From Bacteroidota bacterium (GTDB taxonomy: Bacteria > Bacteroidota > Bacteroidia > Palsa-965): DNA of 64,000 bases. The stretch covers positions 83,586 through 147,585 of the forward strand of contig VBWE01000013.1 of NCBI GenBank assembly GCA_006218065.1, written 5' to 3'. This document shows, in pieces, positions 42,095 through 47,751 of the stretch (position 1 is its first letter; every line of letters starts with the position of its first letter). Both the position numbers and the translations under genes were made by a program. The notes under the pieces were generated by a model. The model saw nothing but the letters and a program-made list of their open reading frames with translations. It was not told the DNA's origin and made no database searches.

Positions 42095-43214
42095 ATGATT
42101 ACTATTGAACAAATTAAAGGCCTTGCAGAGCGCAAAGATGCGCTTAGGAGGCATCTTTGACGTCGACAGGAAACTCGCGCAGATTGCCGAAGAAGAAGCG
42201 CTGACCCAGCAACCCGGTTTTTGGGATGATCCGAAAAAAGCGGAAGCGCTGCTCAAAGAAATCAAACAGAAAAAGAACTGGACTACCGCATTCGACGAGC
42301 TTTGCAAAAGCCTGGACGATCTGCAGGTCATGTTCGATTTTTACAAAGCCGGCGACGCGACTGAAAAGGATGCGGACCAGCAGTACGCCGAATCGGTGAA
42401 GAAACTCGAAGATCTCGAGTTCAAGAACATGCTCGGCGGCAAGGAAGACAATATGAACGCCGTGCTCACCATCAATTCGGGCGCGGGCGGAACCGAGAGC
42501 CAGGACTGGGCTTCGATGCTCATGCGCATGTACATCATGTGGGGCGAGAAAAACGGTTTCAAGGTGAAAGAAGCCGATCTGCAGGAAGGTGAAGCGGCCG
42601 GCATCAAATCGTGCACACTCGAATTCGAAGGCGATTACGCTTTCGGTTACCTGAAAGGCGAGAACGGCGTGCACCGGCTGGTGCGCATTTCCCCGTTCGA
42701 TTCCAACGCGCGCAGGCATACGTCGTTCGCATCCGTTTACGCATACCCGCTCATCGACGATACGATCCAGATTGAAGTGAATCCTTCCGAATGCGAATGG
42801 GAAACCTTCCGTTCGGGCGGTGCGGGCGGACAGAACGTGAACAAGGTGGAAACCGCGGTACGCCTGTATCACAAGCCTACGGGCATCGTGATCAAGAACC
42901 AGGAATCGCGCTCGCAGATGAACAACCGCGAAAACGCCATGCGCCTGCTCAAATCGCAGCTGTATGAAATTGAAATGCGCAAACGCATGGAAAGCACGGC
43001 GGCGATCGAAAGCTCGAAGAAAAAAATCGAATGGGGTTCACAGATCCGCAACTATGTGCTGCATCCGTACAAACTGGTGAAAGACCTGCGCACGGATTAC
43101 GAAACGTCGGATGCGCAGGGTGTGCTCGACGGCGATCTGAATGAATTTATCAAGCATTACCTGATGGAATACGGTGCGGTCTGGAATGCCACGAATAAAC
43201 CGGCACAAAAATAA
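42095..43214 (+). CDS. prfB: Peptide chain release factor 2, with +1 programmed frameshift
   Basis: Translation starts at ATG 42095 and reads 21 codons ([21 protein letters not shown]) to an in-frame TGA at 42158-42160. A +1 shift at CTT-TGA-C continues as [13 protein letters not shown] to 43214, giving 372 residues. This is the classical RF2 autoregulation: when RF2 is low, TGA is read slowly and the ribosome shifts. The SD-like AGGAGG (42146-42151) upstream of CTTTGA has the Escherichia coli spacing. Stop recognition motif SPF is at about 199-201 and the catalytic GGQ at about 244-246. A start at 42105 would be an artefact of reading only the second frame. Confidence 0.95.
42146..42161 (+). 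promoter_or_regulatory. prfB +1 frameshift site (AGGAGG-CAT-CTT-TGA-C)
   Basis: Internal SD-like AGGAGG, one CAT codon, slippery CTT and stop TGA followed by C. This equals the conserved bacterial RF2 recoding signal. Frame before: 42095; frame after: 42159. Confidence 0.95.
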
Positions 43215-43583
43215 ATGGCGAAGAAAAAACAGGATATCACGATCTGGCATAAAAGCAACTGTGCAAAAAGCTGCGAGGTGATGAGCGTACTTAAAAAAGA
43301 GAAAGTAAAGCCGGAAGTATTCCTGTACCTTGAAACGCCGCCGACGGAAGAGGAACTGAAAGACATCCTGAAAAAACTGGGCATCAAAGCAGAGGAACTG
43401 GTGCGGAAGAAAGAGCCGATCTATAAGGAGAAATACGAAGGCAAGAAAATGACCGAAGCCCAATGGATCAAGGCGATGATCAAAAACCCGATCCTGATCG
43501 AGCGGCCGATTTTAATCATGGGAGATAAGGCTTTGATCGGGCGGCCGACGGAACGGGTGTGGGAATTAATAGAGAAGTATTAA
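43215..43583 (+). CDS. ArsC/Spx-family thioredoxin-fold protein
   Basis: 122 residues. ArsC-like layout: the start ITIWHKSNCAKSCEVM has C16 at the thioredoxin-fold catalytic position and a second cysteine C20; later PTEEELKDILKKLGI and ERPILIMGDKALIGRP, the conserved ArsC-family Arg-Pro and IGRP motif. It may be a glutaredoxin-dependent arsenate reductase or an uncharacterised ArsC-like oxidoreductase; no ars operon is present. It starts directly after the prfB stop codon, so the two are probably co-transcribed. Confidence 0.88.
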   Translation: MAKKKQDITIWHKSNCAKSCEVMSVLKKEKVKPEVFLYLETPPTEEELKDILKKLGIKAEELVRKKEPIYKEKYEGKKMTEAQWIKAMIKNPILIERPILIMGDKALIGRPTERVWELIEKY

Positions 43584-43600
43584 CTTTCTGAAAAAACAGT

Positions 43601-44809
43601 ATGGCATTTTATTTAAAAAAAGCAGTACTTGATCGGGGCAAATCTATTCGGCATGCTGAAATTGATTTGTTGTCGGGATTAAATGTTGTAATTGGTAAGA
43701 ATGGATCGGGAAAAACAAATTTTCTAAATTTTCTTACTACAGCTATAAGTTCAAATTTTCATGTGCTGGAAGGAGAGTTTTCAGAATTGATATTCGCGAA
43801 TAATGGTGTTGATTTTTCGATGAGAGTAACGAAAGAAATAGCTATTCATTCCAGTGGAGTTGCTTCATTTCCCTCTCCAATTGTCAATAAAGAACTTATT
43901 ATTAATGGCAAATCATTCAACCCGCAAAGAAATTCCGAGTATTTGGATGTGTTGGAACAAAACAAGTCTGTTTTCTTTGATAACTATATTCAATATGGAG
44001 TACCTGAGAAGTTTTTATTGTTTAAAGATCCATACTCGTTTTCCATAGATTATCAAGAAAAACAATCCACCAATCTCAGTAATTTATACTCATCAATCCC
44101 AAATCAGCTTAGCTCGGCCACAATTATTTTAAACTCTCTTTTTATAAGTCTTACAAAACTAACTGAACGACCGAAGGAAAAAAATATTAGTGAAATTCTG
44201 AATAAGATTCAGTCAAAGTTCATAACACCAATTGAAAGTAATCTGAGGTTAATAACCAATATAGAAGAAGTTAGAATTAGCCCTAATTTGAATTTTTACT
44301 ACGAGCATAACGCAAAACTCATAATAAACAATTTGTTTTTCGAATATAAAATCGATGACAATTGGCTTCCTTATTCGTCCCTTTCCGATGGCACACGACG
44401 AGTTTTGTATTTGGTATTTGAGACTCAAATCATGAGTTTTGTCAAAGCGGGTGTGCAGGAAATGATGATCGATGAAATTCCAAACAAAGATATTTTCAAA
44501 CCGGAGGGCATTTTAATTTTCATCGAAGAACCCGAACTCGGTCTACACCCGCATCAGCTTCATAAACTGATGGAATTTCTCAAAGAACAATCGGAAAGCA
44601 AGCAAATCATTCTTACTACGCATTCCCCACAAGTTCTTGATATTCTTGGCCCGGATGAACTGGAACGCATCATTATCTGCGAATATGATCATGAAAAAGG
44701 CACGCAGCTTCGGCACATGACTGAAGAAGAAATGGAGCGGGCAAGAAACTATATGAAAAAAATGTACCTGAGCGATTTTTGGAGATTTACTGATTTTAAT
44801 GAGAAATAG
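43601..44809 (+). CDS. ABC-type AAA ATPase of the OLD/RecF-like group, candidate defence ATPase
   Basis: 402 residues. Walker A is G32-K-N-G-S-G-K-T39, the signature-like motif is YSSLSDGTRR (S262/D263/G264), Walker B is FIEEPELGLHP (E309/E310) and a switch histidine is at H341 in TTHSPQ. This order and the long helical middle part (about 60-250) match SMC/RecF/OLD-type ATPases rather than transporters. There is no C-terminal TOPRIM domain; a TOPRIM-like protein is encoded by the next gene (3-bp gap). The first 900 bp are much more AT-rich than the flanking genes, which suggests recent transfer. The pair is probably an anti-phage module (inference). Confidence 0.88.
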   Translation: MAFYLKKAVLDRGKSIRHAEIDLLSGLNVVIGKNGSGKTNFLNFLTTAISSNFHVLEGEFSELIFANNGVDFSMRVTKEIAIHSSGVASFPSPIVNKELIINGKSFNPQRNSEYLDVLEQNKSVFFDNYIQYGVPEKFLLFKDPYSFSIDYQEKQSTNLSNLYSSIPNQLSSATIILNSLFISLTKLTERPKEKNISEILNKIQSKFITPIESNLRLITNIEEVRISPNLNFYYEHNAKLIINNLFFEYKIDDNWLPYSSLSDGTRRVLYLVFETQIMSFVKAGVQEMMIDEIPNKDIFKPEGILIFIEEPELGLHPHQLHKLMEFLKEQSESKQIILTTHSPQVLDILGPDELERIIICEYDHEKGTQLRHMTEEEMERARNYMKKMYLSDFWRFTDFNEK

Positions 44810-44812
44810 TGC

Positions 44813-45379
44813 ATGAAACGAATTGGACTGATCGGTGAGTCGGAAAATGACAGAGACTCATTGAAAAAACTGCTTGAGAAAAAATACGGAGATCGCGTGC
44901 AATTTATCCCGATGCTTAAAAGAATAGAAGGGTACCAACTGGATACCGAAAAAACACTGTTTATACTCGAAGAAGAATATTTGAAAAGAAAACCTGATGC
45001 AATCGTTTTTCAGCGTGATCTTGATGCGCATGAAGGCAATTTGGCAAAACTGAAGGAACGTAACGAATACTTTGACCAATCAAACAAACATGTTTCGGGA
45101 AGTGGGCTTTTTCTTCTGCACATTCATGAAATAGAAGCGTTAATCTTGGCAGATCTTGACGGATTCAATAAGCGTTATGCTGTATCCGTTTCATTTACAG
45201 GGAATCCAATGTATCAGGATAACCCCAAAGAATGGCTGAAGAGCAAAAGCGGTAGAAATGGGTACGAACCTAAACATTGTGCCGTTTTGTTTGAAAACCT
45301 GGACTTTGATCGTTTGCGGCAACGTGTCCGCTATTTCGATACTTTCATAAACCAATTCGATCAATTACTCACAGCATAA
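44813..45379 (+). CDS. DUF4276/TOPRIM-like protein, partner of the upstream ATPase
   Basis: 188 residues. The start [20 protein letters not shown] places an acidic residue at E9, and a DxD pair lies at D69-L-D71 ([11 protein letters not shown]), the arrangement of TOPRIM nuclease sites (E then DxD). The [16 protein letters not shown] stretch (about 103-118) matches the H-E-x-E-A-L-x-x-(S/A)-D pattern I associate with DUF4276. It starts 3 bp after the ATPase gene stops, so the two proteins are made together. Its codon use is AT-rich but less so than the front of the ATPase gene. Probable nuclease component; not verified. Confidence 0.75.
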
Positions 45380-45384
45380 ATAAT

Positions 45385-46803
45385 ATGTCACTCACAACTG
45401 CATCCATGAACTACCGCATCGAAAAAGACACGATGGGCGAGGTGAAAGTGCCCGCCGACAAATACTGGGGCGCACAAACCGAGCGTTCACGCAATAATTT
45501 CCGCATCGGTCCCGAAGCCAGCATGCCGAAAGAGATTATCTATGCTTTCGCGTACCTGAAAAAAGCCGCCGCACATGCCAATCACGATCTCGGCGTGCTG
45601 CCTGCCGACAAACGCGACCTGATCAGCCAGGTATGCGATGAAATCCTGGCAGGCAAGCTCGACGACCAGTTCCCGCTGGTGATCTGGCAAACGGGTTCGG
45701 GAACGCAGAGCAACATGAACGCGAATGAAGTGATCGCCTATCGCGGCCACGTGATCAGCGGCGGGCAACTCGGCGACGAGAAAAAAGCGCTGAACCCGAA
45801 CGACGACGTAAATAAATCGCAGTCGTCGAATGATACGTACCCGACGGCCATGCACATTGCGGCATACAAGCAGGCGACGGAGGTCACGCTGCCCGGTTTG
45901 AAGAAACTCCGCGATTCGCTGGCGAAAAAATCAAAAGCGTTTAATGAAATCGTGAAAACCGGCCGCACGCATTTCATGGACGCCACACCGCTCACGCTCG
46001 GGCAGGAATTCGGCGGTTACGTGCAGCAGATCGACAACAGTATACGCGCGATCAATAATGCACTTGGGATGGTGAGCGAACTGGCGCTCGGCGGAACAGC
46101 CGTCGGTACGGGACTGAATACGCCGAAAGGGTACGACGTGCTCGTGGCGAAAAAGATCGCGGAATTCACCGGCCTTCCTTTTGTAACGGCTCCGAATAAA
46201 TTCGAGGCGCTGGCTGCGCATGATGCGATGGTGGAACTTTCCGGCGCGCAGAAACGTGCGGCGGTAGCCCTGATGAAAATCGCGAACGATATCCGTATGC
46301 TCAGCTCCGGACCGCGCTGCGGGATCGGGGAGATCATTATCCCGGACAACGAACCGGGTTCGTCCATTATGCCCGGTAAAGTAAACCCGACGCAGCCGGA
46401 AGCGCTGACGATGGTTTGCGCGCAGGTGATGGGCAACGACGTGGCTGTTTCCATCGGCGGTTCGAACGGCCATTTCGAACTGAACGTTTTTAAACCGCTG
46501 ATCGCCGCCAACGTACTGCAGAGCGGCCGCCTGCTGGGCGATGCCTGCGTTTCATTCACGGAGAAATGCGCCGACGGCATTGAGCCGAATTTGCCGGTAT
46601 TGAAAAAGCACCTGGAAAATTCACTGATGCTCGTAACCGCGCTCAATACGCATATCGGTTATTACAAAGCCGCCGAAATCGCCAAGAAAGCGCACAAGGA
46701 AAACAAAACGCTGAAAGAAGCCGCCATCGAACTCGGTCACGTTACCGCCGAACAATTCGACCAATGGGTACGCCCGGAGGATATGGTGGGATCACTGAAA
46801 TAA
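45385..46803 (+). CDS. fumC: Fumarate hydratase, class II
   Basis: 472 residues. The lyase-superfamily signature [15 protein letters not shown] is at about 329-343, the catalytic [17 protein letters not shown] is at about 192-208, and the first active-site region [12 protein letters not shown] at about 109-120. It interconverts fumarate and malate in the citric acid cycle. A start at 45406 ([13 protein letters not shown]) would fit the family length equally well. It follows the AT-rich island by 5 bp. The TAA is directly followed by the left end of a palindromic repeat. Confidence 0.96.
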
Positions 46804-47119: not shown

Positions 47120-47151
47120 ATAGACATCCCGGGCTTTTTATTTTAATGTAT

Positions 47152-47751
47152 ATGAGACCCTTTTTTCTTTTGCTGTCGCTGATGATCTGTTTCACCGCGA
47201 TGGCGCAGCGGCCCGGAGATACGACCAACTACCGCCGCGAGATTATTTACAAGGATAAACGTTTCCGCGTCTGGAACAACTGGATGACAGGCGGCGCGGG
47301 CGTCGGTTATAACACGAAGAATCCGCATATGCAGGCGGTTATCGGGCTGAATTTCAATTTCCATATCCGTGCGCGGTATTTCCGGTTGGGCGGTGCGCTG
47401 GCTGGCGATGACCTCGGTATCCGGAACGATTACCAGTTCCACGGCGCGTGGATTTTCCGGCGCAGCGATAACGAACGGTACCACTGGGCGCACATGGCCG
47501 GGCTTTCGTATTCCACGATGTACGATTTTCTTTTTCCTTCGCCCATCGGCCCGGTTTATACCAATGATCCCGTGCAACGGGTGGGCCTTTACCTCGAATC
47601 GCAGCTGATACGGAAAATTCTCTACGATGTGGGAATCGGGCTTTCGGCGTATGCGGATATCAATGCACACCGGCAGCTTTTCGGGCTGCGCGCCGATTTG
47701 TATTTCTCCGGAGCGTATCGCGGGATGGCGAAGGGCGGGAAGAGGAAGTGA
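47152..47751 (+). CDS. Small secreted/outer-membrane protein
   Basis: 199 residues from ATG 47152 (a start at 47146 adds two residues). Signal peptide MRPFFLLLSLMICFTAMAQ. The mature part is beta-rich with aromatic girdle-like strands (MQAVIGLNFNFHIRARYFRLGG, YQFHGAWIFRRSDN, LYLESQLIRKILYDVGIGLSAYADIN), suggesting an outer-membrane barrel of about eight strands. No family recognised; single-gene unit. Confidence 0.65.
   Translation: MRPFFLLLSLMICFTAMAQRPGDTTNYRREIIYKDKRFRVWNNWMTGGAGVGYNTKNPHMQAVIGLNFNFHIRARYFRLGGALAGDDLGIRNDYQFHGAWIFRRSDNERYHWAHMAGLSYSTMYDFLFPSPIGPVYTNDPVQRVGLYLESQLIRKILYDVGIGLSAYADINAHRQLFGLRADLYFSGAYRGMAKGGKRK

Follow-up and report, generated by a model that had tools for sequence, protein, structure and literature searches.

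In the PARIS system, a hexamer of the ATPase sequesters a Toprim nuclease and frees it on sensing a phage protein, and the effector then cuts tRNA. Other reported pairs of the AAA–TOPRIM_OLD type comprise a toxin that is neutralised by its ATPase; for a related pair neutralised by an AAA protein, no phage hit was obtained in E. coli. Not every protein of this kind serves in defence. Cran1, a class 5 OLD protein, has a cell-cycle role, so that inferring defence from the presence of an OLD-like protein is not automatic. HEC-01 is a candidate system composed of an AAA ATPase and a DUF4276 protein that was found embedded in Hma; such embedding reflects how it was found and is not necessarily required of its members. 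A literature search returned no mention of DUF4276. Here, a pair of genes related to these systems is described, which is most likely (with a probability of roughly 0.6) a two-gene conflict cassette of the ATPase–DUF4276 (HEC-01) type, predicted from sequence and comparative analysis to act in abortive-infection anti-phage defence.

The gene pair and its setting

The window (the whole stretch of 64,000 nucleotides that was analysed) holds the pair between an arsC-like gene and fumC:

43215..43583, + strand: arsC/Spx-like gene (PF03960), the left border of the slot by synteny in relatives
43601..44809, + strand: ABC/RecF-like ATPase of 402 aa (AAA_21/AAA_15, HEC-01A-like), 17 bp 3' of the arsC-like gene
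44813..45379, + strand: candidate DUF4276-like Toprim-type nuclease of 188 aa (HEC-01B-like)
45385..46803, + strand: fumC (PF00206), the right border of the slot

The two open reading frames share the forward strand and are separated by 3 bp (TGC), and the second ends 5 bp before fumC at 45385. These coordinates are exactly those of the first-pass annotation, which had described two tightly spaced genes with a 3-bp gap between the arsC-like gene and fumC, and the Walker A lysine K38, the aspartates D69/D71 and the HEIEAL motif (residues 105-110) are likewise present as it had described. Both frames are genuine genes, each with at least 23 intact homologues and a conserved gene order; because the homologues are intact, stand in the same order and share invariant residues, chance open reading frames are excluded.

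The scanned piece (L001), which begins 98 bases downstream of where the arsC-like gene starts, contains on its + strand no promoter of the Bacteroidota TAnnTTTG type before the ATPase gene that would belong to the pair itself, and the full two-box Bacteroidota promoter pattern is absent near the pair. Expression of the two genes probably relies on read-through from the prfB-arsC-fumC operon. In homologous loci, the gene 5' of the pair is often codirectional and near (11-115 bp), an arrangement that fits this predicted mode of expression. On either side of the slot, prfB starts with the ATG at 42095 and carries the classical RF2 programmed +1 frameshift site (AGGAGG CAT CTT TGA C; window 42095-42162) before its main frame, and a 201-aa protein with no Pfam match adjoins fumC at 47146-47751, where it is also conserved in relatives.

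Relation to known systems

The ATPase matches Pfam AAA_21 (87 bits) and AAA_15 (82 bits) and, among PADLOC families, AriA, HEC-01A and PDC-M07A with similar strength. HEC-01A models reach 93 bits (PDLC04177, E 4e-27) and match 24 of 24 homologous ATPases; AriA models score as high, and the match alone is therefore not specific. For the small protein, the best PADLOC match is HEC-01B PDLC04196 (E 3.8e-5, 21.8 bits), with half of the profile covered, and individual HEC-01B models match up to 17 of the 24 partner homologues. Its sole Pfam match is DUF4276 (PF14103), at 25.3 bits, below the gathering cut-off of 30.2. Profile comparison of the small-protein family with canonical DUF4276 by hhalign gives 96.7% (E 4e-10) over 187 columns and the full length, and the HEFEALLFSD motif of canonical DUF4276 has an aligned counterpart in the small protein, HExEAL being shared. 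Canonical DUF4276 proteins of the phylum are mostly encoded 3' of an ATPase gene and match HEC-01B strongly. Given the HEC-01A and HEC-01B matches and the full-length DUF4276 homology, the pair is classed by its sequence as a divergent ATPase–DUF4276 type, PADLOC HEC-01, itself a candidate system. The subtype, which the first-pass annotation had left unassigned, can thus be named, and the AbiL-like or Gabija-like affinities that it had entertained find no support; its broader reading of a split OLD-type ATPase/Toprim pair and candidate anti-phage system is borne out by the HEC-01A/HEC-01B matches, DUF4276 and the residue layout.

The pair shares with HEC-01 its two genes in the same order and the DUF4276-type HExEAL and P-K motifs. 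It differs in that its small protein has GExxND and DxD instead of VEGxTE and DxY, and in its location, which is not within Hma and among homologues is mostly solitary amid core genes. As an aside on the profiles, PADLOC PDLC04143, although named HEC-01A, matches nuclease-type partners (5 of 13 canonical DUF4276 proteins) and may be a model of a fused form or mislabelled.

Several better known systems resemble the pair in part. PARIS (AriA/AriB; OLD class 4) also places an ATPase and a Toprim protein on adjacent genes, and the ATPases share a fold and a 94-bit AriA-model match; membership is not supported, as the partner has no AriB/DUF4435 match among PADLOC and Pfam profiles. A search for DUF4435 in the phylum gave one match, too few for a comparison profile. 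In AbiL (AbiLi/AbiLii) and other AAA–TOPRIM_OLD pairs, an ATPase is likewise followed by a small Toprim-like effector, and the AbiLi model scores 68 bits; the small protein matches no AbiLii/RloB profile (hhalign to RloB, 9.9%), and AbiL membership is not supported because that effector is missing. Gabija and other OLD class 2 systems combine an ABC ATPase with the Toprim layout of catalytic residues, and membership is not supported, given the separate genes and the lack of an adjoining UvrD-like helicase. PtuA of Septu and retron PtuAB systems is among the best structural matches of the ATPase, and Septu membership is excluded by a partner with no HNH match and by the lack of a reverse transcriptase (retron).

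The small partner as a candidate nuclease

Ten residues of the small protein are invariant among 24 homologues (G8, E9, D13, D69, D71, L101, E108, D114, P138 and K139). The predicted catalytic positions are as follows:

44837..44851, + strand: E9 and D13 (E...D, spacing 4), predicted metal-A and metal-B ligands; invariant; compare TsOLD E377/D381
45017..45025, + strand: D69-L-D71, a DxD following strand 3 and predicted to bind metal A; invariant; compare TsOLD D431/D433
45128..45136, + strand: E106-I-E108, following strand 4 and predicted to bind metal B; E108 invariant; compare TsOLD S478/E480
45224..45229, + strand: P138-K139, candidate transition-state lysine; invariant; compare TsOLD R487 and BpOLD K562

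The nuclease of Thermus scotoductus OLD (TsOLD) uses E377/D381, D431/D433, S478/E480 and R487 (PMC7049728). The order and spacings of these residues agree with those of the small protein (E+4=D, DxD, xE two apart), whose lysine lies further downstream, as in the Class 2 enzyme. The two-metal set E..D, DxD, [ST/E]xE, K/R is present in Toprim order. In the AlphaFold2 model (mean pLDDT 94.7), strands span residues 2-7, 29-33, 63-69 and 98-103, and the invariant acids follow the first, third and fourth of these, which is also their placement in OLD.

Foldseek ranks 6NK8 second (E 0.026, TM 0.41), a value comparable to unrelated Rossmann-like matches; hhalign of the small-protein family against OLD Toprim gives 0.3%, essentially no sequence-profile link; a PDB sequence search with the small-protein profile yields only archease (E 0.036), a chance match; and a viral fold search gave nothing informative. 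The small protein is very probably a Toprim-type nuclease, to judge from its sequence and model. Its Toprim fold, which the first-pass annotation had suggested, is backed mainly by the OLD-like residue layout on a confident model together with a weak fold match, and confidence in the fold itself is modest.

The OLD-type arrangement of catalytic residues, along with the Rad50/OLD-like ATPase, would also suit direct, ATP-regulated DNA restriction as in OLD or Gabija, in which the pair would cleave phage DNA and the cell would not be killed. Such a mode of action is rather improbable, since there is no helicase partner and the division into separate Toprim and ATPase proteins is that of PARIS, whose effector cuts tRNA.

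The ATPase and its AT-rich central domain

The ATPase has 23 invariant residues among 24 homologues, and its principal features are as follows:

43694..43717, + strand: Walker A GKNGSGKT (residues 32-39, with K38); G32, N34, G37 and K38 invariant in 24 homologues
43751..44245, + strand: hypervariable, AT-rich central domain (residues 51-215), a proposed sensor or trigger-recognition module on the basis of conservation, GC3 and module-like exchange
44381..44392, + strand: ABC signature-like LSDG (residues 261-264); L261, S262 and D263 nearly invariant, G264 invariant
44507..44542, + strand: Walker B / EEPELG (E309-G314); in the Hymenobacter locus L160, a recombination breakpoint falls at the corresponding position

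The nearest folds to its AlphaFold2 model (mean pLDDT 84.9) in Foldseek are PtuA, AriA and Rad50. Its least conserved part is residues 61-200, where position-wise conservation is 0.11-0.22.

This variable region is also the most AT-rich. GC content is 0.32-0.33 over window positions 43600-44400 and 0.36-0.40 across the 3' end of the ATPase gene and the second gene, as against 0.47-0.59 in the neighbours. The first-pass annotation had noted an AT-rich front of the ATPase gene and read it as a sign of transfer. The gene is indeed AT-rich relative to its neighbours, but its AT-richest part is the central domain (residues ~51-215) and not simply the front. GC3 is 0.30 in the central domain and 0.42 in the C-terminal part, and the central part is the AT-richer of the two in 18 of 24 loci. 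The suggestion of transfer does not hold in the form in which it was put: the GC3 of the ATPase falls short of the flank mean in 25 of 26 loci (in 20 of the 26, every flank gene has a higher value), and the slot is occupied by the pair in relatives as well, so that a single recent transfer as the sole reading of the AT-richness is rejected. Across loci, ATPase GC3 correlates with host GC3 (r 0.68, slope 0.36). AT-richness of the ATPase thus characterises the family, and does not on its own point to recent import into the genome of the window. More generally, a defence gene that is AT-rich relative to its surroundings should not be taken on that ground alone as recently transferred.

The arsC–fumC slot and homologous loci

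Among the six members of the window's family with a readable prfB–arsC–fumC locus, four carry the pair in the arsC–fumC gap and in the same orientation, all with the ATPase gene preceding that of the small protein, which is present in 4 of 12 genomes of the family. The other two lack both genes together and have intact prfB, arsC and fumC. In one of them (G004) the site is empty (31 bp), and in the other (G002) the gap contains a 23S rRNA intervening-sequence protein, which indicates that it accepts other cargo. This protein, a four-helix bundle, is flanked in G002 (L025 7750-8460) by short repeated GTGATGAAGTAATTGG-like tracts. In the outgroups G016, G017, G019 and G023, prfB, arsC and fumC are adjacent and the pair is missing, and G016 and G017 have small open reading frames between prfB and arsC. 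In the flank-gene tree, G004 and G002 group with G008. This placement calls for several gains, or else for a single gain followed by two losses. Compared with the window's copy, the pairs of other family members show 33-38% identity, and fumC is 85-92% identical among them. Within this family, the pair tree shows no significant conflict with a host-like grouping (AU p 0.129), and its history may be one of descent with losses or of repeated allele replacement. The trees of the ATPase and its partner correlate (r 0.57, 0 of 2000 permutations).

A wider genome scan found 24 loci, including one from G009, a member of this family. All belong to Bacteroidota or to lineages closely related to them, and the pair is present in 10 of 395 genomes of the class. 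The ATPase gene lies 5' of its partner, abutting or overlapping it, wherever both are on the contig. In L043 (6998-7564), the partner frame has no standard start codon at the expected place and may use an alternative start or be degraded. The flanking genes encode core functions that vary by locus, including ileS, methylmalonyl-CoA mutase, biotin synthase, aconitase, recJ and nifU. Among 99 neighbour proteins from 22 loci, six PADLOC families are matched below 1e-20, by one protein each; two of these, SspA and DndA, are cysteine desulfurases that can be housekeeping, and at most a few of the matched neighbours are genuine defence genes. With so few defence-family neighbours, the pair is usually solitary beside core genes. 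No relatives were found in phage, plasmid or viral-contig collections, and carriage by mobile elements is rejected on this basis.

The constant slot in four family members and the precedent of a non-defence OLD protein, the class 5 Cran1, could be taken to indicate a housekeeping or regulatory role tied to the prfB-arsC-fumC operon. This is very unlikely. Two related genomes with the three operon genes intact do without the pair, the pair diverges far more than fumC, and its homologues adjoin unrelated core genes. The first-pass annotation had raised the prospect that homologues might always stand in housekeeping contexts; they do lie mostly among housekeeping genes, but these are different ones each time and the distribution is patchy, which argues against a housekeeping role. 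If the pair is instead an anti-phage cassette, as predicted, then defence pairs that stand alone can go unnoticed within core operons, away from defence islands.

Mosaic alleles in Hymenobacter

In the window's own family, alleles are too divergent for a test of mosaicism, which was demonstrated in relatives from Hymenobacter. Of 120 Hymenobacter species, 10 have the pair, and there are two groups whose members share a site. One genome (G595) has two copies at different sites (L159 4864-6846 and L048 5643-7570), with partners ~44% identical. At the first shared site, the identity between L048 and L051 is 80% for the N-terminal part of the ATPase and 88% for its C-terminal part, as against 18% for the middle; their partners are 83% and their downstream flanks 91% identical. 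The hypervariable middle segment that separates such same-site alleles comprises ~165 central residues of the ATPase; taken alone, it could reflect exchange or, as a possibility that stands beside it, extreme divergence with no exchange. At one Hymenobacter site, dN/dS was saturated for the ATPase.

At the second site, the affinity of L160 changes along its length. In the two flanking genes (26:10 and 72:14 informative residues), and within the ATPase as far as Walker B (70:24), it sides with L157; from that motif onwards, partner gene included, it sides with L156 (14:97). This breakpoint (p 4e-20 by Fisher's test, equalled or exceeded in 0 of 300 shuffles) is clearly the result of recombination. 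The DNA profile agrees with the protein mosaic: identity to L157 is for the most part 0.87-0.97 over the flanks and drops to 0.42-0.47 within the central domain. There are thus two patterns of exchange, one of the central module alone and one of the C-lobe and nuclease together, the latter suggesting that C-lobe and nuclease function as one.

These patterns bear on whether the pair might be a toxin-antitoxin-like or selfish element, in which the ATPase would counter a nuclease that is toxic, and addiction would maintain the genes, with no protection from phage. Tight coupling and joint presence or absence of the two genes, their solitary placement, and the AAA–TOPRIM_OLD precedent with its related pair lacking a phage hit in E. 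coli would all be in keeping with addiction. It is nonetheless unlikely, as sensing in an arms race accounts better for the high variability of the central domain and for module exchange, and the patchy occurrence in 10 of 120 Hymenobacter species also speaks against it.

Proposed function and implications

The anti-phage role of the pair is proposed because of its family, patchiness, divergence and mosaicism; weak Toprim fold similarity, the scarcity of defence neighbours and the lack of phage, plasmid or viral relatives count against it. By analogy with PARIS and AAA–TOPRIM_OLD pairs, the ATPase, assembling through its ABC lobes and C-terminal tail, would keep the small Toprim-like nuclease inactive, and its variable central domain would read a cue of infection. 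Upon this trigger the nuclease would be released or activated, and would cut nucleic acid with two metals held by E9, D69 and D71 and by D13, E106 and E108, with the participation of K139. Relatives diversify by recombination at fixed chromosomal slots, exchanging either the central module or the C-lobe together with the nuclease.

The most interesting feature of the family, and one that lies outside the original finding, is this exchange of modules at fixed slots. It is tentatively suggested that the family is a cassette for swapping modules in place, housed in fixed core-gene slots, where recombination at conserved ABC motifs exchanges the sensor insert or the C-lobe and nuclease as units; the persistent AT-richness of the sensor might then stem from repeated import from a shared pool.

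The ATPase–DUF4276 candidate gains a concrete, albeit predicted, catalytic model, and which part of such ATPases recognises phage becomes directly testable by domain swaps. Same-site Hymenobacter alleles with shared ends and nuclease and unrelated central domains constitute a natural experiment on the part that recognises phage. Type I restriction systems are known to swap their specificity domains. If in-place module swapping holds true for this family, trigger recognition and effector would be separately inheritable in a somewhat similar manner.
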